From Bacteroidota bacterium (GTDB taxonomy: Bacteria; Bacteroidota; Ignavibacteria; UBA10030; UBA8401): a DNA stretch of 51,834 bases. Numbering within the stretch: the stretch's first letter is position 1; each line of letters begins with the position of its first letter. The stretch is from the NCBI GenBank assembly GCA_008933835.1, contig WBUG01000018.1:1-51834 (forward strand), written 5' to 3'. The notes beneath the pieces were generated by a model. That model saw only the letters and a list, made by a program, of their open reading frames with translations, had not been told where the DNA came from and did no database searches. This document shows, piece after piece, positions 8,317 to 21,020 of the stretch. The position numbers were made by a program, and so were the translations under genes.

Positions 8317-8742
8317 ATGGGTCAACAACAACAATTATTACTGTCGGGCGGCATGTTCATCGTCTTCATTGCGCTGGCGATGGGTGTCCGGCTGTACGAA
8401 GAGAACAACGACGCCATGTATCTGACGCAGATCGAACAGGAGCTCGGATATCTGGCGATGAAATCGCAGGAGTACTACCACAAACCGCTCCATCTCAACG
8501 GCGGGAGCGGAACGTTCGCCGGTGTCATGTCGGCGGACGACCTCACGGTCATTCTGGGCGGATCGCCGCGCACCGCGGCGGGGGATCATACCTACACGCT
8601 TTCGTTCAGTCTCATCACATCGGCAACGGACGATTCGATGACCATCAGTGCGGAGGGTTCCACTCCTCTGCGTGACCGAACCTTCCCCCGGTACGACCTG
8701 ACGGTGACCGGCGGGAGTTTCACCTTGAGGAGGGCCCGCTGA
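8317..8742 (+). CDS. Small membrane-anchored pilin-like protein of unknown function
   Basis: 141 residues. The N-terminus MGQQQQLLLSGG is followed by a single hydrophobic helix (MFIVFIALAMGV, about residues 13-24) and then an amphipathic stretch rich in E, Q and Y. The C-terminal 80 residues look beta-rich and extracytoplasmic. One N-terminal helix continuing into a polar helix resembles a type IV pseudopilin, but the usual prepilin-peptidase site (G/FTLIE) is absent. From memory, FCB genomes often carry short proteins starting MGQQQLLL; this needs a database check. An AGGAAGAGG stretch precedes the ATG closely. It heads the plus-strand block leading into the GspE-type ATPases, so a pilus- or secretion-related role is plausible. 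Confidence 0.6.
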   Translation: MGQQQQLLLSGGMFIVFIALAMGVRLYEENNDAMYLTQIEQELGYLAMKSQEYYHKPLHLNGGSGTFAGVMSADDLTVILGGSPRTAAGDHTYTLSFSLITSATDDSMTISAEGSTPLRDRTFPRYDLTVTGGSFTLRRAR

Positions 8743-9184: not shown

Positions 9185-9547
9185 ATGAAGAAGATCCTGA
9201 TCGTCGACGATTCGATGTACAACCGCTCGCTGCTCAGCGCGCTGCTGCGCAAGAAGGGCTTCACCGTCGAGACGGCGGAGGACGGTGCGGAGGGGGTGGA
9301 GAAGTTCCGCACATCGATGCCGGACGCCGTCTTCCTCGACTACATCATGCCGAAGATGAACGGCGTGCAGGCGCTGGAACAGATGAAGACCCTCTCGCCG
9401 GACGTCCGCAGCTTCATGCTCACCTCCATCTCCTCCGAAGAGGACGTACGCCGGGCGAAGGCGGCGGGGGCCGACGGCTACATCCTGAAACCGTACGAGC
9501 CGGCGAAAGTGTTCGATCTCCTGCACCGATTCGGACTGATGGAATGA
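9185..9547 (+). CDS. CheY-like single-domain response regulator (module 1)
   Basis: 120 residues, a stand-alone receiver with no output domain. All key residues are present: the acidic pair Asp8/Asp9, phospho-acceptor Asp52 (VFLDYIMPKMNG), Thr80 (FMLTSIS) and Lys102 (YILKPYEP). GGGAGGAGC lies just before the ATG. The stop overlaps the start of the zinc-ribbon gene by 4 bp (ATGA), so the two are translationally coupled. No histidine kinase is encoded nearby, so phosphorylation must come from elsewhere. With no DNA-binding domain, output should be by protein contact. The neighbouring zinc-ribbon protein with a FliM-like tail is the obvious candidate partner (inference). Confidence 0.95.
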   Translation: MKKILIVDDSMYNRSLLSALLRKKGFTVETAEDGAEGVEKFRTSMPDAVFLDYIMPKMNGVQALEQMKTLSPDVRSFMLTSISSEEDVRRAKAAGADGYILKPYEPAKVFDLLHRFGLME

Positions 9548-9876
9548 TGCAGCCCGGACATAGCTGTCCGACGTGCCACCGTCGGTACTACGACCCCCCC
9601 TTCACCTGCGCGGAGTGCGGTACGGAACTGGGGTGGACGTGCATCGCGTGTTCCCACGGGAACCCGCTCCTGTACCGTCATTGCGGCTCCTGCGGGGAGC
9701 CCATTCCGGCCGCCATCGCCGCCATGGTGAACAGCGGCACGCAGCTCCGCATCGTGAACGTGCCCCAGTTCGACGAGGCCGCCGTGACCGAGCTCATCGA
9801 AGAAGGGCACCGCATGGTGGCGCGCCGGACCGTCCGGACGCTGTCGCAATCCGACCTGGACAAACTGTTCGAATGA
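9544..9876 (+). CDS. Double zinc-ribbon protein with FliM-like C-terminal peptide (module 1)
   Basis: 110 residues starting with tandem Met codons at 9544 and 9547; either could be used. Four CxxC pairs (C8/C11, C22/C25, C33/C36, C47/C50) make two zinc ribbons, the last reading HCGSCGEPIP. A linker with a short helix follows, and the protein ends in LSQSDLDKLFE. This end resembles the CheY-P-binding N-terminus of flagellar FliM (LSQAEIDALL in E. coli). It overlaps the receiver gene upstream and the ATPase gene downstream by 4 bp each. A paralogue with the same layout occupies the same slot at 11983-12303. Likely an adaptor between receiver and ATPase; no family name is known to me. Confidence 0.85.
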   Translation: MMQPGHSCPTCHRRYYDPPFTCAECGTELGWTCIACSHGNPLLYRHCGSCGEPIPAAIAAMVNSGTQLRIVNVPQFDEAAVTELIEEGHRMVARRTVRTLSQSDLDKLFE

Positions 9877-11579
9877 TGTTCGCCCGCGAAGACCTCCACT
9901 TCCGCGACCATTGTCTGCAGCGGTCGCTGCTCACCAGGGAGCGCTGGGAGCAGTTCGTGGACCACGCCAGCAACTACGGCATGGCCCGCGGATTCTCGGC
10001 CGCCCTCGTGGAAGCGGGCGTCTTCCCGGCGGAGGAGCTTCCGCGGCTCATCGCCGAGGCCTTCACCGTTCCGGTGATGACCCTCTACGCCGAATCGGGC
10101 TCCGCGCCGAAGGAGATCATCCCCGAAACGGTGATGCATTCCCGCCGCGTCATCCCGATGTTCCTCTTCGGGAACGAGCTGACGGTGGCCATGGTCGATC
10201 CCCCGTACCGAAGCCTTCTGGAGGAACTGGGAAAGATGACCGGGATGAAGATCATCCCGGTGATCACCGACATCACCGACTTCTTCGAGACCCTCAAGAT
10301 CAACCAGGGGGGCTACGATGAGCTGAAGCGGCTCGCGAGCGCCATCGACCTGGAGAAGTACGACCTCATCCGCAGCGGCGAGAAGGAGGTCAAGCGCCTC
10401 GAGCAGATGGGGGCGTTCCCGCCCCTCATCATGCTGGTGGACGAGGTCATCGTCCGCGCCGTGAAGATGGGGGCCAGCGACATCCATCTGGAACCCTTCG
10501 AGCACGAAGTGCGGCTCCGGTTCCGTTTCGACGGCGTGCTGCAGCGCATCGCCTCCTTCCCGGCCACCCTCGCCGACGGACTCGCCGCCGTGGTGAAGAA
10601 CAAGGCGGGGATGGACATCTTCGAGAAGCGGCGTCCGCAGGACGGCCGCCTCTCCCTCACCATCGAGAGCCGTTCGTTCGACCTGCGGGTCAACTCGCTG
10701 CCGACCGTCCACGGCGAGAAGCTCGTGCTCCGCATCCTGAGCAAGGGCTCCATCAACAAGAAGATGGAGGACCTCGGACTGTCGGGACACAACCTGAGCC
10801 TGCTCCTCCACCTTCTGCAGCAGCCGAACGGACTGCTGCTGGTCACCGGTCCCACCGGCAGCGGCAAGAGCACCACCCTCTACGCCGCCATCAACCACAT
10901 CCGGTCGGTGGAGAAGAACATCGTCACCGTCGAGAACCCGGTGGAGTACATGGTCGAGACGGTGAACCAGGTGAACGTGGACCCGGAGCGGAACCTGACG
11001 TTCGCCAACGCCCTGCGCGCCATGCTGCGGCAGGACCCCGACGTGGCGCTGGTGGGCGAGATCCGGGACACCGAGACCGGGACCATCGCGACCGAAGCGG
11101 CGCTCACCGGACATCTCGTCCTCTCCACGCTCCACACCAACGACGCCGTCGGTGCGGTGCCGCGGCTCATCAACATGGGCGTACCGTCGTACTGGCTCGC
11201 GCCGGCGCTCATCGGCGTCGTGGGTCAGCGGCTCGTCCGCCGGCTCTGTCCATCGTGCCGGGAGGAGTACCGGCCGACCGACGAAGTGCTCTACAAAGCG
11301 GGCATCAGCGGTCTGGCGTCGCGGACGGTCTTCTATCGCGCCGCCGGCTGTCCCGCCTGTCACCACCAGGGATACCGGGGGCGCATCGCCATCCACGAAG
11401 TGTTCCGCGTGTCGGAGGAGATCCAGACGCTCATCTACCAGAACGCCGAAACTTCCCGGATCCGCGACGCCGCGGTGAAGGACGGGTTCCGGGACCTCCG
11501 CTTCGACGGACTGAAGAAGGTCATCGCCGGGCTCACCACGCTGGAAGAGGTCCAGCGCGTCACCCGGTCCGCCATCTGA
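9873..11579 (+). CDS. GspE/PilB-family type II secretion/type IV pilus ATPase, intact active site (module 1)
   Basis: 568 residues. The start at 9873 is an ATGA overlap with the zinc-ribbon stop; the open frame continues upstream but only as a shadow. The N-terminal ~150 residues resemble the GspE/MshE N-domain (helical, then VPVMTLYAESG and VIPMFLFGNELTVAMVDP). The motor domain has ASDIHLEP, Walker A GPTGSGKSTT (Lys332), an Asp-box-like TVENPVEY, catalytic Glu396 in VGEIRDTETG, and the His-box LSTLHTND (His421). A C-terminal zinc-binding region (CPSC and CPAC) ends in the usual GRIAIHEVF. All residues for ATP hydrolysis are present. No PilC, PilM-Q or GspD homologue occurs in this window, so its machine is encoded elsewhere or is unusual. 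Confidence 0.95.
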   Translation: MMFAREDLHFRDHCLQRSLLTRERWEQFVDHASNYGMARGFSAALVEAGVFPAEELPRLIAEAFTVPVMTLYAESGSAPKEIIPETVMHSRRVIPMFLFGNELTVAMVDPPYRSLLEELGKMTGMKIIPVITDITDFFETLKINQGGYDELKRLASAIDLEKYDLIRSGEKEVKRLEQMGAFPPLIMLVDEVIVRAVKMGASDIHLEPFEHEVRLRFRFDGVLQRIASFPATLADGLAAVVKNKAGMDIFEKRRPQDGRLSLTIESRSFDLRVNSLPTVHGEKLVLRILSKGSINKKMEDLGLSGHNLSLLLHLLQQPNGLLLVTGPTGSGKSTTLYAAINHIRSVEKNIVTVENPVEYMVETVNQVNVDPERNLTFANALRAMLRQDPDVALVGEIRDTETGTIATEAALTGHLVLSTLHTNDAVGAVPRLINMGVPSYWLAPALIGVVGQRLVRRLCPSCREEYRPTDEVLYKAGISGLASRTVFYRAAGCPACHHQGYRGRIAIHEVFRVSEEIQTLIYQNAETSRIRDAAVKDGFRDLRFDGLKKVIAGLTTLEEVQRVTRSAI

Positions 11580-11596
11580 ACCATCACGGCCGCACC

Positions 11597-11986
11597 ATGC
11601 ACATCAACGACATCTCCGTCCTCATCATCGACGATTCGGACCACATCCGCGCCCTCTTCGCGATGACGATGACCCGCGCCGGCGTCACCCGCTGCCATCA
11701 GGCGAAGAACGGCGAGGAAGGGGTCCGCATGTTCCGGGAACTGCGCCCCACCATCGTCTTCCTGGACAACATGCTTCCGCTCCTCTCCGGCATGGAGGTG
11801 CTCCGTCAGATCAAGGAGACCGACCCGAAGAGCGTGGTCGTCATGATCTCCGGCGCTTCGAACATCGAGACCATCAAGGAGGCGAAGGAGGCGGGTGCGG
11901 CCCACTACATCATCAAACCGTACTCCGCCGGCAAGGTGGTGGAGGTGATGACGAAACTGCTGTCGCTGGAGGGTTCCGCCGTATGA
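11597..11986 (+). CDS. CheY-like single-domain response regulator (module 2)
   Basis: 129 residues from the ATG at 11597; the frame is open upstream, but only this Met gives a normal receiver N-terminus (ISVLIIDDSD). Asp12/Asp13, phospho-acceptor Asp57 (VFLDNMLPLLSG), Ser85 (VVMISGAS) and Lys107 (YIIKPYSA) are all present, so phosphorylation should be possible. It lies 17 bp after the first ATPase gene and overlaps the second zinc-ribbon gene by 4 bp. No strong Shine-Dalgarno sequence is visible, which is common in this phylum. It is clearly a divergent paralogue rather than a recent copy of the receiver at 9185. Confidence 0.94.
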   Translation: MHINDISVLIIDDSDHIRALFAMTMTRAGVTRCHQAKNGEEGVRMFRELRPTIVFLDNMLPLLSGMEVLRQIKETDPKSVVVMISGASNIETIKEAKEAGAAHYIIKPYSAGKVVEVMTKLLSLEGSAV

Positions 11987-12303
11987 TCTGTCCCTCCTGC
12001 AACAACGACAATCCCCGCTCCGCCGTCGAGTGCCTGACGTGCGGCGACAAGCTGACGGTGGCGAGCTGCTCCTGCGGTTTCCGCGCTTCGCTCATCGACC
12101 GGTTCTGCGGTCAGTGCGGAGAGCCGCTGCTCAAGAACCCGCTCTTCGGGACGAAACTGCGCACCGTACCGTCGCGCCGTGCCGCCGCGTCGTTCTCCGA
12201 ACAGGAACTCATGACCCTCGTCGGCATCCAGCATTCCAACTCCCTTCAGGGACGGGCCGCGCCGGCCGTCTCGCAGAAGGACGTCGACGCACTCTTCGAG
12301 TAG
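11983..12303 (+). CDS. Double zinc-ribbon protein with FliM-like C-terminal peptide (module 2)
   Basis: 106 residues. The cysteine pairs are C3/C6, C17/C20, C29/C31 (CxC rather than CxxC) and C42/C45, ending FCGQCGEPLL. This parallels the module-1 protein (HCGSCGEPIP). After a linker the protein ends in VSQKDVDALFE, again matching the FliM-type pattern SQ-x-[DE]-[ILV]-D-x-L-[LF]. The start is an ATGA overlap with the receiver stop; the ATPase gene starts 3 bp after its stop. Conservation of both zinc ribbons and the last residues while the middle diverges suggests these ends are the functional contacts. Role unknown; adaptor inferred. Confidence 0.85.
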   Translation: MICPSCNNDNPRSAVECLTCGDKLTVASCSCGFRASLIDRFCGQCGEPLLKNPLFGTKLRTVPSRRAAASFSEQELMTLVGIQHSNSLQGRAAPAVSQKDVDALFE

Positions 12304-12306
12304 ACG

Positions 12307-13995
12307 ATGAACATCCGGGACGACGACCAGCGGCTCCTGCGGCATCTGCACGGCAAAGGCGTGCTCGACCGCGAACGGCACGAACGGTGCGAACGCACGC
12401 TCGCGCTCTCGCCCGAGCGTTCCATCGTCGACGTGCTCATCGACACGGCCGGGATCGACGAACTGACGGTCGGACAGGCGGTCTCGGAGCTCTACACCGT
12501 GCCGTTCGTCCTGCTCACCCCCAGCATGGTCGCGTGTCACGATGCCGGACGGCGGCAGGATTTCCTGCAACGGTACCATGCGGTGCCGGTCACGAACACC
12601 GGCGTCGAAGTGACCGTCGGATTCTACACGCCGCCGTACCGCACCGTCATCGAGGCGCTGAAGCGTCAGGAGAAGGCGTTCATCGTTCCGGTCATCACCA
12701 CACGGTCCGCGTTCCGTACGGTGGCCGGGGAACGCACCGGCGACGGACAGCGGACGGTGCCGTCGAAGTACGCCCTCGAGCAGCTGGACCTCGCCACGCG
12801 GGACGGCGAGAAGGTGGCGGCGCTGGTGAAGAACGGTCCCCTCCCGACCGCCGACATCCTCACCGACGAGATCTTCATCCGCGCCATCAACGCCGGCGCG
12901 TCGGACATCTACCTTGAACCCTCCGCATCGCACCTGCGGGTGCTCTTCAATATGACGGGGGTCCTCTCCACCATGTTCGTGCTTCCGCGCGAGGTGAAGG
13001 AGCAGATCATCAACGTCATCCGGGTCCGCGGAAACCTGAACATCTTCGAGAAGAACCGTTCCCAGGAAGGGAGCTACGCCGCCACGTACGGTGGTGCGGG
13101 GTTCCAGTTCCGGATGAGCACGCTCTCCACCGGTTCGGGCGAACGGCTCATCATCCGCGTCATCCGCGCCGCGTCCGACGTACCGTCGCTGGAGACCACC
13201 GGCATCTCCCCCGAGAACCTCACCGCCGCCCACCGGCTCGCCCAGCGGTCGCACGGGCTCACCGTCATCGCCGGTCCTCCCGGCGCGGGGAAGACCACCA
13301 CGGCGTACGCCCTGCTCACCTCGCTGCGCGACAGCGGCCGGAACATCGTCACCGTCGAGCGGCCCATCGAAGCGCCGCTGACGTTCGCCAACCAGGTGCA
13401 GTGCGACTCCGGACAGCAGACGGACAACGCCACCATGATCCGGTCCGTGATGCGGTACCGGCCGGACGTACTGTTCATCGGAGCGCTCACCGATGCGGAC
13501 ACCGGACTCGCCGCCGCCGAGGCCGCCCTCTCCGGTGCGCTGGTCGTCACCACCGTCACCGCCGGGGACGTCGAATCGGCGCTCCTCCGGCTGATGAACC
13601 TCGGCATCCCCGAAGCGTGGCTCCCGTCGCTCCTCAACGGCATCATCTTCCAGCGCCTGACCCGCCGGATCTGTCCGGACTGCAGCGAGGCGTACACGCC
13701 GGTGCGGCAGGACCTCGCCGCCGCCGGCATGGCACCGCTGGAGAATCTCATCTCGTTCTACCGCGGCACCGGCTGCGCCGCCTGCCTGCAGACGGGCCAC
13801 AGCGGTCAGCTGGCGGTGCACGAAGTGCTCGAGGTGGACGGTCCCGTCCGCGAAGCGCTCGCCCGGCGCGCCTCCGGCGCCGACGTGCTCGCCGCGGCGT
13901 ACGCCCAGGGGGGAGAACCGTTCCGCTTCGACGCCGCAAAGAAGCTCGTCTCCGGCATCGTCTCGATCGACGATTACCTCCGGCTCATCCACTGA
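12307..13995 (+). CDS. GspE/PilB-family protein with degenerate ATPase site (module 2)
   Basis: 562 residues with the same layout as the first ATPase: N-domain (VPFVLLTPSMVA), motor domain with ASDIYLEP, Walker A GPPGAGKTTT (Lys329) and a C-terminal zinc region (CPDC and CAAC) ending LAVHEVL. Three hallmark positions are changed. The catalytic glutamate of VGEIRD is Ala393 (IGALTDADTG), the His-box LHTND is VTAGD (Thr418 in place of His), and the Asp-box carries Arg (TVERPIEA). The reading frame is intact over full length and codon use matches the neighbours, so it does not look like a decaying pseudogene. Likely a nucleotide-binding but weakly or non-hydrolysing partner or regulator of the first ATPase (inference). 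Confidence 0.9.
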   Translation: MNIRDDDQRLLRHLHGKGVLDRERHERCERTLALSPERSIVDVLIDTAGIDELTVGQAVSELYTVPFVLLTPSMVACHDAGRRQDFLQRYHAVPVTNTGVEVTVGFYTPPYRTVIEALKRQEKAFIVPVITTRSAFRTVAGERTGDGQRTVPSKYALEQLDLATRDGEKVAALVKNGPLPTADILTDEIFIRAINAGASDIYLEPSASHLRVLFNMTGVLSTMFVLPREVKEQIINVIRVRGNLNIFEKNRSQEGSYAATYGGAGFQFRMSTLSTGSGERLIIRVIRAASDVPSLETTGISPENLTAAHRLAQRSHGLTVIAGPPGAGKTTTAYALLTSLRDSGRNIVTVERPIEAPLTFANQVQCDSGQQTDNATMIRSVMRYRPDVLFIGALTDADTGLAAAEAALSGALVVTTVTAGDVESALLRLMNLGIPEAWLPSLLNGIIFQRLTRRICPDCSEAYTPVRQDLAAAGMAPLENLISFYRGTGCAACLQTGHSGQLAVHEVLEVDGPVREALARRASGADVLAAAYAQGGEPFRFDAAKKLVSGIVSIDDYLRLIH

Positions 13996-14966: not shown

Positions 14967-15698
14967 TTATCGTCCTTCAGAGGGCACGGCCACCGGGGGG
15001 CGGCCGTTCACGAGCATCAGCTGCATGCCGAACGTGGCGGCGACGCGGCTGATGTCGGTGACGCTCACCGGTTTCGTCACGCATTCCACGAAGGAGAAGC
15101 CCGCCTTGCGCATGGAGTTCACATCGTTCTGTGACGCGGTCAGTACGATGACCGGTGTCTCTTTCGACGCCGGGTGCGACCGTAACCGTTCCAGCACCTC
15201 CAACGCTCCCCCCTTCGGGATGTTCTGGTCCAGGATGATGAGCGACGGAAGAGGCAGTGAGGAACGTTTCTCGTACGGTCCGGTCGCGTGCACGAACGAG
15301 AGCACTTCGCCGCCGTCATGCACGGTGTGAACGGTGTTGCGCACGTTCGCATTCTTGAACGCATGCACGGTCAGGTCGATGAACGAGCGGTCGTCCTCGG
15401 CGATGAGGATCTCGACCGGCACCGCGTCACGGTTCGGCCGGTGCTGCATCAGCCGGACCGGTTGTCCCTGTCCCTGCGTCTGCAGCTCCTCGCTGCGCGC
15501 GAAGAGGGCGGAGAGCGGAGTACGGAGGGCGCTCGCGATCTTCTCGATGCTTTCGATGGAGATGTTCCGATTCCCCCGCTCCACGTCGGTGATGTAGGTG
15601 CGGTGCAGTCCGGAACGGTTCGCGAGTTCCTCCTGTGTCAGGTCCTGACCAAGACGGATGTCGCGCACTGCGGCACCGACGAATTGACGAAGCTTCAT
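14967..15698 (-). CDS. Fusion regulator: XRE-type HTH plus CheY-like receiver
   Basis: 243 residues. The start at 15698 is chosen because GAGGAG lies 6 nt before this ATG; upstream in-frame Met codons (15719, 15740) lack such a site. Residues about 5-62 are a Cro/CI-type HTH (LTQEELANRSGLHRTYITDVERG). Residues about 93-215 are a receiver with the acidic pair in AEDD, phospho-acceptor Asp157 (LIILDQNIPKGG), VLTAS and a conserved Lys (CVTKPVS); it resembles the Rcp1-like branch. Most response regulators have the receiver first and the DNA-binding domain second, so this order is reversed. No kinase is adjacent. It is a single-gene unit with its own terminator. Confidence 0.9.
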   Translation of the reverse strand: MKLRQFVGAAVRDIRLGQDLTQEELANRSGLHRTYITDVERGNRNISIESIEKIASALRTPLSALFARSEELQTQGQGQPVRLMQHRPNRDAVPVEILIAEDDRSFIDLTVHAFKNANVRNTVHTVHDGGEVLSFVHATGPYEKRSSLPLPSLIILDQNIPKGGALEVLERLRSHPASKETPVIVLTASQNDVNSMRKAGFSFVECVTKPVSVTDISRVAATFGMQLMLVNGRPPVAVPSEGR

Positions 15699-15958
15699 AG
15701 TGTCTCCTCGTTCGTTCATGGTCGAATGATGGGCAAACATGCAGAAAATATCAACAGACTATGAGTGACATGATGGAAGGGGCCGTTCGGAGGATGACCG
15801 CCGTACGGACGGCCGGAGGAGAACGATCGGTGAAAGCAAGATACGGAACGGAACGCGGAGTGCAAAGGGTCGGGATGGAATTCTCATGTTCCGGAACCCC
15901 GGAGGAACGGCAGGATGACGTGCGCTGCTCCGTCGTGGTGCGGAACAGCGCACACCGT
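15699..15958. other. Intergenic region, 260 bp
   Basis: It lies between the start of the HTH-receiver gene and the stop of the large T9SS protein, both on the minus strand, so it must hold the promoter of the former. Small open frames here show no recognisable protein. A short GTGCG/CGCAC hairpin near 15937-15952 lacks a T-run, so I do not call it a terminator. Confidence 0.4.
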
Positions 15959-18900
15959 TCATCGCAACAGCAGCATCTTCTTCGTTGCGGAGAAGAGCGG
16001 CGCGCCGTCCGAGGGCCGCACCGCACGCACGGTGTAGAAGTACGTGCTGCTGGAGAGTCCGCTCGCGTCGAACGGAACGTCGTGAACTCCGCGGAGCAGC
16101 GGTCCGCGGAACGGTTCCGCCGTGCGGCGGCCGAGCAGGTCGTACACCTCCACGGTCACGACGGCGTCCTCCGCCAGCGAGAGACGGATGGTGGTCGCCG
16201 GATTGAACGGGTTGGGAAAGTTCTGATGCAGAGCGAACGTCACGGGAGCCGTGGGGTCCATCTGTGCGCGGATGAACTCGCGCCGACCCACGATGACGCG
16301 GTACGGCCAGGCCGACTCCCGTGCCGGCACGGAGACAGACCGTTCTGCGTCGGGCGTCAGCACCGCACCGGAAACACCGTCCATGACGATGACCGAGTAC
16401 CCTTCCGGTAATGATTCGCCGCCATGGACGATGAGCCGTGAGGACGTACCGTTCGTCTGCTGCAGCACGATGTCCCACCGCTGTCCCTCCCCCAGTGCCG
16501 GACGGATGTCCGACGCGAACCGCGGATGCCGCGGATCCCAATCGGGCCGGTCGAGCCAGACGGCGGTCTGATCGCCGAAAACGGGGGGCTTGCGCTCGTC
16601 GAACTCGTCCATGCCGGCCGATGCGCCGTCGTCCGTTCCGATGACGAGCGTTCGGTCCGTACCCGCATCGGAACGGTGTTCGAGCGTCAGCGCGAACGCC
16701 GGCCGCTGCACGGAAAGGTCCGGCGTATCGGCGAAGGGGAACGGTACAAGCAACGTTGTCGTGCCGGAGAAGTAATAATATCCCGTGTACGGCTTCAGGA
16801 TGTCGGCCTGTTGGAAACCGCCGGTCCCCTCGTAGGCGTACGCCATCGCGCTGCCGGCGAGTCCGTTCGCGCTCCGCACATCGCTCCACTTCACCGGCAC
16901 CGGATAGGGATTGCCGATGATGTTCCATCCGACCCGCGTTGCGACGGCGTACAAGCCGGTCGATGCCGACGGTGAGGGATGAGACAACGTCCCTTCAATG
17001 AGGAGATCGCCCTTCTTCACCAGCCAGTACCCCTCGCCCACGGACGGTACGGCCGCTCCGGTCAGTTCGGAGAGATGCGAAGGGGGCGTACCGCCGTTGT
17101 CGCGGAAGAGACGGAAGTCCGCCGGAGACGAACCGTTGAGGAAGGTCCCGACGGTCTGTGACAATGTGCTCGGGATGGTGACGAGCCGGTAATCGGTCGG
17201 TGCCGACGGTGATTTCGGATAGGAGACCGGCACGACGCTCACCGTTCGCTGGGCCGCCGAGATGAACGATGCGACGGCGGACCAGGCGGACGAGTTCGAA
17301 ACGCTGCGCGCCCGCACACGCCACTGGTACACCGTTCCGGGCGAAAGGCCGGAGACCGTCCACTGCGTCGTCGAAGCCGTGAAGACCCTCCCCCGGATGG
17401 AGGACGAGATGGCCGTTCCGACCTCCACGTCGTACGCGGTGGCGCCGCTGACCGATGTCCAGTTCAACGCGGTGGAACCGGCCGAGACCACGGTGCTGCC
17501 GGTCGGGGACATGAGCGTCGGCGTCGCCAACGCCGTGCCGGGATTGACCGTGGAGTAGTACGTCCTCGTGAAGCCCCAGTCCGGCACGAACAGTCCACCG
17601 ATGGCGGCGGAGTACGACGGAACAGCGAAGAGCGCGTCCTGTGCGATGACCGCCGCGTGTACGGTGGAAGCGTTCAGGTCCACCTGCGCCGTCATGCCGT
17701 TCCTTCCGGTGATGTACACCGTGGAGGCGCTCACGAACGCGATGCCGTACCCGAGCCTCGGCAGTTGTCCCACCTTCTGCCATGACGTACCGCCGTTCGA
17801 CGTCTTCCAGACGGTGGAATCCGACTTGACCGCGACCCCTGCCGTTGCCGTGCGGAACGAGACGCACGAAACGCCGACCATCGAATCCGCGGAGGCTGTG
17901 CCCACGGACTGGAAGTTCCACGACGCTCCGACATCAGTCGTCTTCCAGAGTCCGCGATAGTTCTTCGATCCGACTGTTTTGTACCCGGTCAGATACCCGG
18001 CGGTCTGTACCGGGAAGGAGACGGCGGACGGATAGGTGGTACCGACGATGTACGAATTGTTGTTCACCCAGGTCAAGCCGCCGTTCGTGGAAGAGAGGAA
18101 GGCCATGGCGGTCGGCGTCGACGTACCGATGCCGTCCCCCACGGCCACCGCATTCGTCGTATTGAAGAACTTGATGGAGTTGATGAAATCGGTGGTCGCA
18201 GGGGAATTGTAGACGAGCGTCCATGTCGCGCCATTGTCGGTCGTACGGTAGATCTTTCCCGTTCCCGTCCCTGCCAGGCCGACTCCGCCGGAGAGGAAGT
18301 CCATGGCGTACACGGTCTCGGTCGACGGAATGCCGCTGTTCGCCACGGTCCAGGTGACGGGAGAACCGGCCGTCGGTATCGATGCGGCGCGGGCGACGAG
18401 CCCGTTCTCCCCGCTGAGCCAGAGGTTGCCGCTCCGTTCGATCATGTAGTCGATGGAGCCGGTGGTCAGCGTCGTCGGAACGACGGTCCGCACCATGGCC
18501 GGCAGCGGTTCCGGATACGCCGCCGCCGTACCCGTCACCAGGTATTGGGACGCCGATGCTGCGGACCCGGCGCCGGTCGTGACCGTGATGGTGTACGCCC
18601 CTGCCGCAAGCGACGGGACCACGGCGTTGATCTGTGTGTCGCTCCAGCTGGCGACACCCGCAGCGGCGGCGCCGAACTTCACCGAACCGCTCCCCTGCGA
18701 CGCACCGAAGTTCGAACCGGTGATGGTGACCGAGGAACCGACGGCACCCGAGGGGGGATCGAATCCGGATACGGCGGGTGCGGCATCGTAACCGCCGAGG
18801 CGGTACAGGGAATCGACCTCGGAGGCGCTCAGCGCCCTGTTGAAGATGCGCACGTCGTCGATGGAGCCGTTGAAGGGACGCGACATGTCTTTCTGGTCCC

Positions 18901-20470
18901 CCATCGCGAACCACGCGCCCGAGTACGACACGGTGCCGGTCCAGCCGACGCTCGAAGAGGACTGCAGGATGTTATTGTAGTAGATCTTCCCCGCTTCGCC
19001 GGACTTCCGAGTGGCCGTCACCATCACCCATGTGCCGACCGGAAGGACGGAGGACGAATTGGTGACATGCCACCCGCCGTTACCGATCTGGAAATGAATG
19101 TGTCCCGCGGGATTGACCTGACCGTCCGCGTTGGTGCGGTTGTCCACGAAGATGCTCGCGCCCGACTGCATCCCGTCGTACTGCGACCCGACGATCATTC
19201 CGAGTTCCGCCGGCATCGCGGCGATCTTGATCCAGGCGGAGAGGGTGATCTCGTTCTGGATCTGCAGCGGCGCCGGCACCGGGTCTCCCACCACGATGCG
19301 GTCGTTCACCCCGTCGAACGCGTACGCTCTGTTCGCGACCCCGAAACGGTCCGCCGTCAGCGACGCCCCGGACACGGTCCCGTGCAGTCCGTTGGGCCCG
19401 TTGTCCGACGCGCTGCCGGTGAACGGATAGTAGGCGGCGAGGTCGCTGCCGAGCCGGGCGGCCGGTTCCGGTTCGCTGTACTTCCGCACGCGCAGGTCGT
19501 CCTCATAGCGGATGAGGGACGACGGAGAGTTCACCCAGACGCCTTCGTACGCGAAAACGCGAAGTCCCGTATCGGCGGGAACGGTGCGGTCGGTGATGAC
19601 CGTATGCCATGCCTGCGGTCCGCCCGGTTCCGTGGAGGGGACGGAGAGATCGAAGACGAACGTCCCGTTCGCGCGGCGGGCGACGGAGACGTAGTACTCG
19701 GGATTGTTCGTCATGGCCCAGCTGTCGGTCCGGAAGTTCGTCCCGGAGATCGAACCGCCGGAATGGACCTGCACGCCGAACTCGCCGAAGTCCTGCCACT
19801 GGCAGATGCCGGCCGTGGTGTTGTCGTTGGTCAGCGTGGAGAGACCGATGCGCCGGTAGATGTATCCTCCCTTGCGGAACCGCCCCTCGAACATCACGGA
19901 CCCGGTGAACTTCTGCCGGGAGGCGAGGTAGGTGTTGGACTGCGGAGTGGTCTTCGGCGACTGATGCTCATAGCGGCCGTTCTGTTCGGACGCGCTGCCG
20001 AGATTGTCCGCTGCGGCGATCCACCGCACCGCGTCGAGAGTGTTGTCGTTGAAGTCGTCCCCGAAGAGGAACGCCTTCGTGATGTCGCTGCGGGGGGCGG
20101 CGGCGGGTTCGCCGTACGACAGGTGGATGGTGCTCCGCGCGGACGCCGGGATGTACGGGACCTTCACCCAGATATAGGTGGTGTCCGTGTTCATCCCCCG
20201 GGCGCCGCCGATGCCCGGTTCGATCCAGTACGGCAGGTCGTCCGTGAAGTCGGTCGTGAACCGGATGTCCGAGCCGTCCGCGTTCATCAGGCCCGCGGCG
20301 ATGAGCTGCGCGGTGTTGACCTTCACCAGGACGGTGTAGTCGGTCAGATTCTCTGCGTTGTTCCGGTTGTCGATGGTGACGGGGACGTACGTCCTGGCCG
20401 CCGGAGCGGCGCCGAGCGCCGCGGCGGATGCGAGGAGAAGGAGGAGGAACAATCCGGTATGCGGTTTCAT
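15959..20470 (-). CDS. Very large secreted multidomain protein (DUF2341, LamG, TIG, YCF48/BNR, FnIII) with T9SS tail
   Basis: 1,503 residues. The start at 20470 gives a textbook signal peptide (MKPHTGLFLLLLLASAAA) with GGAG upstream; the 54 residues before it in the open frame are proline/arginine-rich shadow. Approximate order: DUF2341-like domain (YVPVTIDNRNNAENLTDYTV onward); a lectin-like LamG domain (AYYPFTGSASDNGPNGLHG); an IPT/TIG domain (VSGFDPPSGAVGSSVTITG); YCF48/BNR-type propeller repeats (TTDNGATWTLVY, TTDVGASWNF, TSNGGTSWQKVG); a fibronectin-III domain; and a C-terminal region ending in the T9SS sorting domain (QNFPNPFNPATTI). Such architecture suits a surface adhesin or glycan-binding protein. 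No enzyme active site is visible. Confidence 0.9.
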   Translation of the reverse strand: MKPHTGLFLLLLLASAAALGAAPAARTYVPVTIDNRNNAENLTDYTVLVKVNTAQLIAAGLMNADGSDIRFTTDFTDDLPYWIEPGIGGARGMNTDTTYIWVKVPYIPASARSTIHLSYGEPAAAPRSDITKAFLFGDDFNDNTLDAVRWIAAADNLGSASEQNGRYEHQSPKTTPQSNTYLASRQKFTGSVMFEGRFRKGGYIYRRIGLSTLTNDNTTAGICQWQDFGEFGVQVHSGGSISGTNFRTDSWAMTNNPEYYVSVARRANGTFVFDLSVPSTEPGGPQAWHTVITDRTVPADTGLRVFAYEGVWVNSPSSLIRYEDDLRVRKYSEPEPAARLGSDLAAYYPFTGSASDNGPNGLHGTVSGASLTADRFGVANRAYAFDGVNDRIVVGDPVPAPLQIQNEITLSAWIKIAAMPAELGMIVGSQYDGMQSGASIFVDNRTNADGQVNPAGHIHFQIGNGGWHVTNSSSVLPVGTWVMVTATRKSGEAGKIYYNNILQSSSSVGWTGTVSYSGAWFAMGDQKDMSRPFNGSIDDVRIFNRALSASEVDSLYRLGGYDAAPAVSGFDPPSGAVGSSVTITGSNFGASQGSGSVKFGAAAAGVASWSDTQINAVVPSLAAGAYTITVTTGAGSAASASQYLVTGTAAAYPEPLPAMVRTVVPTTLTTGSIDYMIERSGNLWLSGENGLVARAASIPTAGSPVTWTVANSGIPSTETVYAMDFLSGGVGLAGTGTGKIYRTTDNGATWTLVYNSPATTDFINSIKFFNTTNAVAVGDGIGTSTPTAMAFLSSTNGGLTWVNNNSYIVGTTYPSAVSFPVQTAGYLTGYKTVGSKNYRGLWKTTDVGASWNFQSVGTASADSMVGVSCVSFRTATAGVAVKSDSTVWKTSNGGTSWQKVGQLPRLGYGIAFVSASTVYITGRNGMTAQVDLNASTVHAAVIAQDALFAVPSYSAAIGGLFVPDWGFTRTYYSTVNPGTALATPTLMSPTGSTVVSAGSTALNWTSVSGATAYDVEVGTAISSSIRGRVFTASTTQWTVSGLSPGTVYQWRVRARSVSNSSAWSAVASFISAAQRTVSVVPVSYPKSPSAPTDYRLVTIPSTLSQTVGTFLNGSSPADFRLFRDNGGTPPSHLSELTGAAVPSVGEGYWLVKKGDLLIEGTLSHPSPSASTGLYAVATRVGWNIIGNPYPVPVKWSDVRSANGLAGSAMAYAYEGTGGFQQADILKPYTGYYYFSGTTTLLVPFPFADTPDLSVQRPAFALTLEHRSDAGTDRTLVIGTDDGASAGMDEFDERKPPVFGDQTAVWLDRPDWDPRHPRFASDIRPALGEGQRWDIVLQQTNGTSSRLIVHGGESLPEGYSVIVMDGVSGAVLTPDAERSVSVPARESAWPYRVIVGRREFIRAQMDPTAPVTFALHQNFPNPFNPATTIRLSLAEDAVVTVEVYDLLGRRTAEPFRGPLLRGVHDVPFDASGLSSSTYFYTVRAVRPSDGAPLFSATKKMLLLR

Positions 20471-20516
20471 ATCGAAGACTCCGCGGTCGATGGGTCGTGG
20501 CCGAACATGGCGTTCA

Positions 20517-21020
20517 TCAATTGGGACGGCTGGAGGGAGGCGCGGGAAGCGTTCCGGTGCCCCCGCCGGACGGTTCGTCGTCGGATGCGGAAAGGAGGAT
20601 GGCGGCCGTCGCGCCGGCGACGATGGCGGCACCGCCGGCGTAATAGAGCCACGCGGGAACGCCGGTGTTCTTCTCGATCGTCAGTTCGAACTCGATGTCG
20701 TCGAACGGCAGTCCTTTGGGAAGCTGCTTCTTATAGGCCCACAGGATGCGCCGGTTGGGTCCGACGAAGCGTCCGTCGCCGATGTCACCGCGCGACTCCT
20801 TCATCCGCACGCTGAACGCCTTGTCCTTCTCGCGCGTGAGCCGCACCGAGACGTCGTACTCCGCGTCGGGCTCGTCGCCGACCGGCGTATGGAAGTAGGT
20901 GATGACGATGAGGTCGCCGCTCTGTTCGACGGAGGTGATGCCGTAGGTCTGTTTCCCCTGCGGCCGGACCGGTGCGGCGGTGAGTACGGTGAGCACGATG
21001 AGCGTGCCGATGATGCGCAT
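20517..21020 (-). CDS. Small secreted/membrane-anchored protein of unknown function
   Basis: 167 residues starting at 21020, where GGAGG lies a few bases before the ATG. It has an N-terminal signal (MRIIGTLIVLTVLTAAPV) and a beta-rich middle (YGITSVEQSGDLIVITYFHT onward) with a charged stretch (VSVRLTREKDKAFSVRMKE). A second hydrophobic helix near residues 135-155 (LYYAGGAAIVAGATAAILL) is followed by a Gly/Pro/Ser-rich C-terminus, suggesting a C-terminal membrane anchor. I do not recognise a family. It lies between an envelope protein and the giant T9SS protein, all on the minus strand. Confidence 0.75.
   Translation of the reverse strand: MRIIGTLIVLTVLTAAPVRPQGKQTYGITSVEQSGDLIVITYFHTPVGDEPDAEYDVSVRLTREKDKAFSVRMKESRGDIGDGRFVGPNRRILWAYKKQLPKGLPFDDIEFELTIEKNTGVPAWLYYAGGAAIVAGATAAILLSASDDEPSGGGTGTLPAPPSSRPN

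Follow-up and report, generated by a model that had tools for sequence, protein, structure and literature searches.

Tandem receiver, zinc-ribbon and PilB-like ATPase cassettes in a Bacteroidota genome, with a putative FliM-type CheY-binding peptide at the end of the zinc-ribbon protein

The window analyzed here (the whole 51,834-nucleotide stretch of contig WBUG01000018.1 of a Bacteroidota bacterium, assembly GCA_008933835.1) carries six genes, all on the + strand, that fall into two successive sets, each consisting of a CheY-like receiver (R), a double zinc-ribbon protein (Z) and a PilB/GspE-like ATPase (A). A first-pass annotation made from the letters alone had already described two such sets, and the six genes are confirmed where it had placed them, as is its small protein with eight cysteines in two zinc ribbons, since Z1 and Z2 both have eight cysteines and are both matched by Pfam DZR. 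The features are as follows, with positions counted in the window.

8317..8742, + strand: pilin-like protein of 141 aa (MGQQQQLLL...), lying 5' of set 1 and associated with it through neighbourhood only
9185..9547, + strand: R1, stand-alone CheY-like receiver, 120 aa (Pfam Response_reg, 1.7e-27; phospho-Asp, DD, Lys and Tyr106-equivalent present)
9544..9876, + strand: Z1, double zinc-ribbon putative adaptor, 110 aa (Pfam DZR, 6.6e-6; 8 Cys)
9565..9693, + strand: Z1 double zinc ribbon, C8-C50, from the sequence (Cys columns invariant in the alignments)
9841..9873, + strand: Z1 C-terminal FliM-like putative switch peptide LSQSDLDKLFE (tail conserved in 44/46 Z copies; motif shared with the genome's own FliM)
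9873..11579, + strand: A1, PilB/GspE-like ATPase, 568 aa (Pfam T2SSE, 4.8e-127)
11597..11986, + strand: R2, stand-alone CheY-like receiver, 129 aa (NCBIfam receiver models matched; 37% identical to R1)
11983..12303, + strand: Z2, double zinc-ribbon putative adaptor, 106 aa (Pfam DZR, 2.7e-7; 8 Cys)
12268..12300, + strand: Z2 C-terminal FliM-like putative switch peptide VSQKDVDALFE, from the sequence and alignments
12307..13995, + strand: A2, diverged PilB/GspE-like ATPase and probable pseudo-ATPase, 562 aa (T2SSE, 8.3e-73)
13474..13503, + strand: A2 degenerate Walker B FIGALTDADT, by motif reading

The genes within a set had been described as joined by 4-bp overlaps, which holds for R1/Z1, Z1/A1 and R2/Z2 (ATGA at three of the four within-set junctions) and fails for Z2/A2, where a 3-bp gap is found instead; 17 bp separate set 1 from set 2. 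Pairwise comparison (37% identity for R, 31% for Z and 33% for A) identifies the two sets as true paralogues, with set 2 the diverged one.

The Z proteins consist of zinc ribbons and a tail only, with no FliM domain (PF02154) and no PilZ match in Pfam, and the DZR model (PF12773) places Z2 above its curated cut-off and Z1 0.7 bits under it. In alignments, conservation is concentrated in the cysteine knuckles and in the last ~10 residues, the latter following the pattern [LVI][ST]Qx[DE][ILV]Dx[LIM]F (consensus L-S-Q-x-D-I-D-K-L-F) with Gln and Phe invariant. The strict C-terminal motif was found in 51 of the 3350 ORFs of the fetched loci, all of them Z proteins, some of which were counted in more than one overlapping locus. 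The region between ribbons and tail is variable except for a helix-like segment similar to the tail, Q-[YF]-[ST]-x-x-[DE]-[IL]-x-x-L-L, which lies at about window positions 9766-9804 in Z1 and 12190-12225 in Z2 and may be a second receiver-docking site.

The residues through which Escherichia coli FliM contacts CheY are L6, Q8, I11, D12 and L14 (table in PMC3774744), and, according to PMC9126983, all motile bacteria conserve an 'EIDALL' motif in FliM and FliY. The Z tail corresponds to the CheY-contacting FliM residues position for position, with Phe instead of Leu at the last one, and the genome's own FliM, its sole PF02154 match (on contig C73), begins MAEILSQQEIDSLL and carries the Z-tail motif. 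Going by its L-S-Q-x-E-I-D-x-L-L type sequence at a protein terminus, the tail is best classed as a putative FliM/CheZ-type CheY-binding peptide, even though a profile of Z tails searched against PDB sequences did not recover FliM and gave chance matches only, the motif being short. At least eight relatives carrying Z with its tail yielded no FliM, so the tail does not appear to be retained for the sake of a flagellar system, and crosstalk with flagellar CheY/FliM was rejected as its purpose on these same grounds.

The linkage and tail counts given here are based on 46 Z copies read from ~30 genomes, in which A lies directly 3' of Z in 45 and R alongside Z in 43. Two of the three copies lacking an adjacent R sit at contig ends, and the third (locus L099, Polyangiaceae) is no module member. 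The module occurs in Bacteroidota/Ignavibacteriae, in Nitrospirota and in one Thermodesulfobacteriota MAG. R lies upstream of Z in the Bacteroidota loci and downstream of it in those of Nitrospirota; a scan across genomes of named species returned the order Z-A-R in Nitrospirae MAGs and in one Deferrisomatales MAG. A Z1 search of 60 relatives found the tandem arrangement through most of the family, with Z1 orthologues in more than 10 family genomes, R-Z-A-R-Z-A in further ones and three sets in one of them (L042), while other families of the order have single R-Z-A sets. Full-length Z also occurs in further families in a class-wide search, and in a phylum-wide sample full-length Z matches were confined to the order. 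The first-pass annotation had staked its idea on the arrangement not being peculiar to one genome and on the three proteins co-occurring across species, and this is what was seen, the order recurring in 43 of the 46 Z loci from ~30 genomes and R, Z and A occurring together in three phyla. Such recurrence is more than chance, and the R-Z-A arrangement is a real, conserved module. Its flanks vary by lineage (histidine biosynthesis, a deaminase, a tRNA synthetase and others), which makes the three genes themselves the conserved unit; a place for the module within a type IV pilus operon was rejected for the same variation.

Correlations between the R, Z and A distance matrices are 0.82-0.88, shared ancestry included, and each set remains recognisable as set 1 or set 2 from genome to genome: ATPases of set 1 share 72% identity among themselves and 39% with set 2, and the corresponding values for Z are 59% and 25%. 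The split between the two sets thus reads as predating the radiation of the family. Several single loci deserve a record of their own. The Z of one genome (G213; L109:5645-5857) is interrupted ahead of the tail by an in-frame TAG, through either an error of sequencing or decay of that copy, and in the Deferrisomatales locus (L100:4154-6004) a receiver-GGDEF diguanylate cyclase gene overlaps the start of Z. In one family the module is preceded by a conserved protein of ~370 residues that has receiver and HATPase domains but no HisKA according to Pfam (L051:5090-6205, L052:8030-9133, L054:5110-6225 and L056:5161-6264); this protein is a possible kinase or phosphatase partner of the module.

The module receivers have what is expected of CheY-type single-domain receivers, i.e., the receiver fold, the phospho-Asp, the DD pair, Lys109 and Tyr106, and across 36 of them the phospho-Asp and Lys109 are present in all and the switch Tyr106 in 35. 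At position 99, where CheY has Ala, 29 of the 36 have Lys. The position of CheY Lys119 (the partner of FliM Asp12) is hydrophobic in most, which counts against a FliM-like docking of the tail. The best structural match of the modelled receiver is BeF3-activated CheY (Z 21.5, rmsd 1.4, 35% identity), inactive CheY scoring nearly as high.

A1 has the motifs of a PilB/GspE ATPase (T2SSE) intact (Walker A, Asp box, Walker B, His box and tetra-Cys), and A2 keeps the T2SSE domain, Walker A, the Asp-box Glu and an open frame, but its catalytic motifs are degenerate, Walker B having gone from GEIRD to GALTD and the His box from STLHTND to TTVTAGD. The loss of the Walker B Glu as well as of the His box makes A2 of this genome probably a pseudo-ATPase; its branch length in the tree is 1.27. 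The His box is lost throughout the set-2 clade, most members of which have ST[MIV]L[SA]xx in place of STLHTND. Against the PilB model TIGR02538, A1 scores 539.9 and A2 275.1 bits, both under the cut-off of 675.65, and the GspE score of A1 (513.1 bits) is lower than its PilB score and also under the curated cut-off. The same genome has a third R-Z-A set on contig C68 (L037, 1734-4156), with a single-ribbon Z and a degenerate ATPase in which neither the Walker A Lys (GSGVST) nor the Walker B Glu (GSINE) is kept. In the tree, the Bacteroidota module ATPases form one clade apart from the genome's own two PilB-type ATPases; in a broader tree with a midpoint root, the Nitrospirota and Deferrisomatales ATPases are not joined to this clade with certainty.

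The AlphaFold2 models (R-Z and R-Z-A) were built on homologues from a different genus, with the stop codons read through. In locus L050 the three genes share one frame and are separated by stop codons only, providing a natural linker construct in which the stops were read as residues. The L050 R-Z model (68 aligned sequences) reached a pLDDT of 88.7 and a pTM of 0.71, with the linker (190-200) at pLDDT 44 and the tail at ~93 and helical (233-240), and shows isolated DSSP bridge residues at 91 and 230. As the numbering of this receiver coincides with that of CheY, 91 is the CheY Lys91 position, and 230 is the FliM Ile5 position; the published CheY-FliM complex has backbone bonds A90-L6 and K92-S4 in the same place. 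We infer from these DSSP symbols that the Z tail bridges R where FliM bridges CheY. The R-Z-A model repeats bridge residues 91 and 230 despite the ATPase being available as an alternative partner, at a tail pLDDT down to ~68, zinc ribbons at 57-65 and a pTM of 0.61, and so both read-through models agree on putative docking of the tail on the receiver's alpha4-beta5-alpha5 face. Modelling the three proteins together, which had been proposed as a check, thereby returned the receiver-tail bridge and no supported contact between Z and A (zinc-ribbon pLDDT 57-65).

The genome has a pilus cluster on contig C73 (pilin-like genes, PilC, PilB, PilT and a secretin) and a second PilB-PilC pair on contig C13, and the module's location away from these clusters counts against the explanation preferred here. 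The product of 8317-8742, upstream of set 1, is 35% identical (E 6e-19) to a pilin-like protein of the C73 type IV pilus cluster, which supports a filament role; no pilin-like gene was seen beside the module in the loci of the other genomes examined. T2SSF is found in most module-bearing relatives, but also in 51 of the 60 relatives overall, which makes its co-occurrence non-discriminating. A role in anti-phage defence was set aside, PADLOC giving only marginal, generic ATPase and receiver matches. Elsewhere in the window, both on the - strand, 14967-15740 encodes an N-terminal XRE-type HTH followed by a C-terminal receiver (the reverse of the usual response-regulator order), and 15959-20632 encodes a large secreted-type protein that ends in a NFPNPFNPATTI... 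stretch resembling a type IX secretion sorting domain.

Taken as a mechanism, each set would rather probably be a signal-to-motor cassette, in which Z serves as a phospho-gated adaptor coupling R to the motor ATPase. A histidine kinase encoded elsewhere (the cassette has none) would phosphorylate R, and phospho-R would bind the Z tail in the groove between helix 4 and strand 5/helix 5, much as phospho-CheY binds the FliM N-terminus and the CheZ C-terminus. This binding, suggested by motif identity, the conserved receiver face and AlphaFold2, is the best-supported part of the scheme. The zinc-ribbon head of Z would sit on its cognate PilB-like ATPase, with R binding altering motor recruitment or activity, be it by activation or by braking; strict gene linkage, the parallel divergence of the three genes and the analogy with PilZ are the grounds for proposing such docking. 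A2, in turn, would probably not hydrolyse ATP itself but partner or compete with A1 or with the other PilB-type motors of the genome. The phosphorylation-controlled motor switch working through a zinc-ribbon adaptor, which the first-pass annotation had offered as a working idea, is consistent with all of the findings, and gains in particular from the FliM/CheZ-type tail on Z; its adaptor-ATPase contact is the part that drew no support from the R-Z-A model. The widest form of the proposal, namely a multi-phylum cassette in which a zinc-ribbon adaptor connects a flagellar-type CheY/switch-peptide interaction to PilB-type motors, duplicated cassettes pairing an active ATPase with an evolving pseudo-ATPase as regulatory partner, is more tentative and is given slightly less than an even chance.

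Zinc ribbons are often nucleic-acid binders, and competence is also driven by pilus ATPases, which together would suit a Z that binds nucleic acid in a cassette that governs DNA uptake or transcription instead of a motor; as Z matches no known DNA-binding family beyond the generic DZR and is strictly linked to a PilB-type ATPase, this is the least probable of the alternatives. Hardly more credit is due to the notion that the genes are merely co-transcribed with no physical switch and that the FliM likeness of the tail is coincidental, for although a motif of about 10 residues is short, the tail is invariant over three phyla, is absent from all other ORFs examined and is placed at the FliM site in both AlphaFold2 models. 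Z could also be a CheZ-like phosphatase or sink for the receiver, the tail being a mere tether and the ATPase the receiver's direct target. Such an arrangement would have precedents in the CheZ C-terminal peptide, which binds the CheY face contacted by FliM (Guhaniyogi 2006 via PMC9659070; PMC3774744), and in the single-domain receiver EmvR, which binds PilB and represses its ATPase (PMC11973254); it is nonetheless improbable, the Z alignment having outside the tail no conserved Gln or Asp/Glu to serve as a phosphatase residue, only Cys/Gly ligands being conserved.

Less remote, though still unlikely, is that the ATPase and adaptor serve a secretion/pseudopilus machine and not a motility pilus. 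This would keep the same receiver-Z switch and is thus a variant of the adaptor cassette, with which its share of likelihood overlaps. A1 being under the curated cut-offs of PilB and GspE alike, the genome having two further PilB-PilC sets and the pilin-like gene lying upstream all speak for it, and the A1 score, nearer PilB than GspE (539.9 vs 513.1 bits), speaks against it.

The first-pass annotation knew of no system composed of exactly a receiver, a zinc ribbon and a GspE/PilB ATPase, and in the open literature, the scope adopted here (subscription literature lying outside it), no description of a zinc-ribbon adaptor of PilB or of an R-Z-A module was found. The CheY-FliM switch and the C-terminal tether of CheZ resemble the module in having a stand-alone receiver, an L-S-Q-x-E-I-D-x-L-L type peptide on the target and a conserved Tyr106; unlike in CheY-FliM, the peptide of the module forms the C-terminal end of a zinc-ribbon protein, has Phe and not Leu at its last position, is linked to a PilB-type ATPase and occurs in genomes where FliM was not detected. 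In Xanthomonas, the small protein PilZ links FimX to PilB (PMC11656802). There, too, a small adaptor of ~110-120 residues stands between an extension ATPase and a signal receiver, whereas the module has a zinc ribbon in place of the PilZ domain and takes its input from a receiver and not from an EAL protein. EmvR-PilB in Xanthomonas oryzae and PATAN-PilB1 in Synechocystis, where PATAN regulators act directly on PilB (PMC12288463), are alike in that phosphorylatable response regulators act on the pilus ATPase, and differ in that the portions of the reports drawn upon describe neither a zinc-ribbon adaptor nor a receiver-adaptor-ATPase cassette for either. The archaellum adaptor CheF also stands between CheY and a filament motor, yet is PH-like and binds another face of CheY (PMC9126983). 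Direct receiver control of PilB is already known (EmvR, PATAN), and what is distinctive here is the combination of parts, adaptor included.

The route from chemosensory signals to pilus motors is still under debate, the receivers of the compared systems acting, according to the parts of the sources used, on PilB directly or via second messengers. Being conserved, the Z tail lends itself to targeted mutagenesis and to assays of peptide binding, and the degenerate A2 probably provides a naturally occurring example of a pseudo-motor subunit. If the proposed reading is true, the CheY switch peptide would be a transferable element with uses beyond the flagellum, and a single small protein for each motor would provide a simple, testable route from phosphorylation to pilus or secretion activity.
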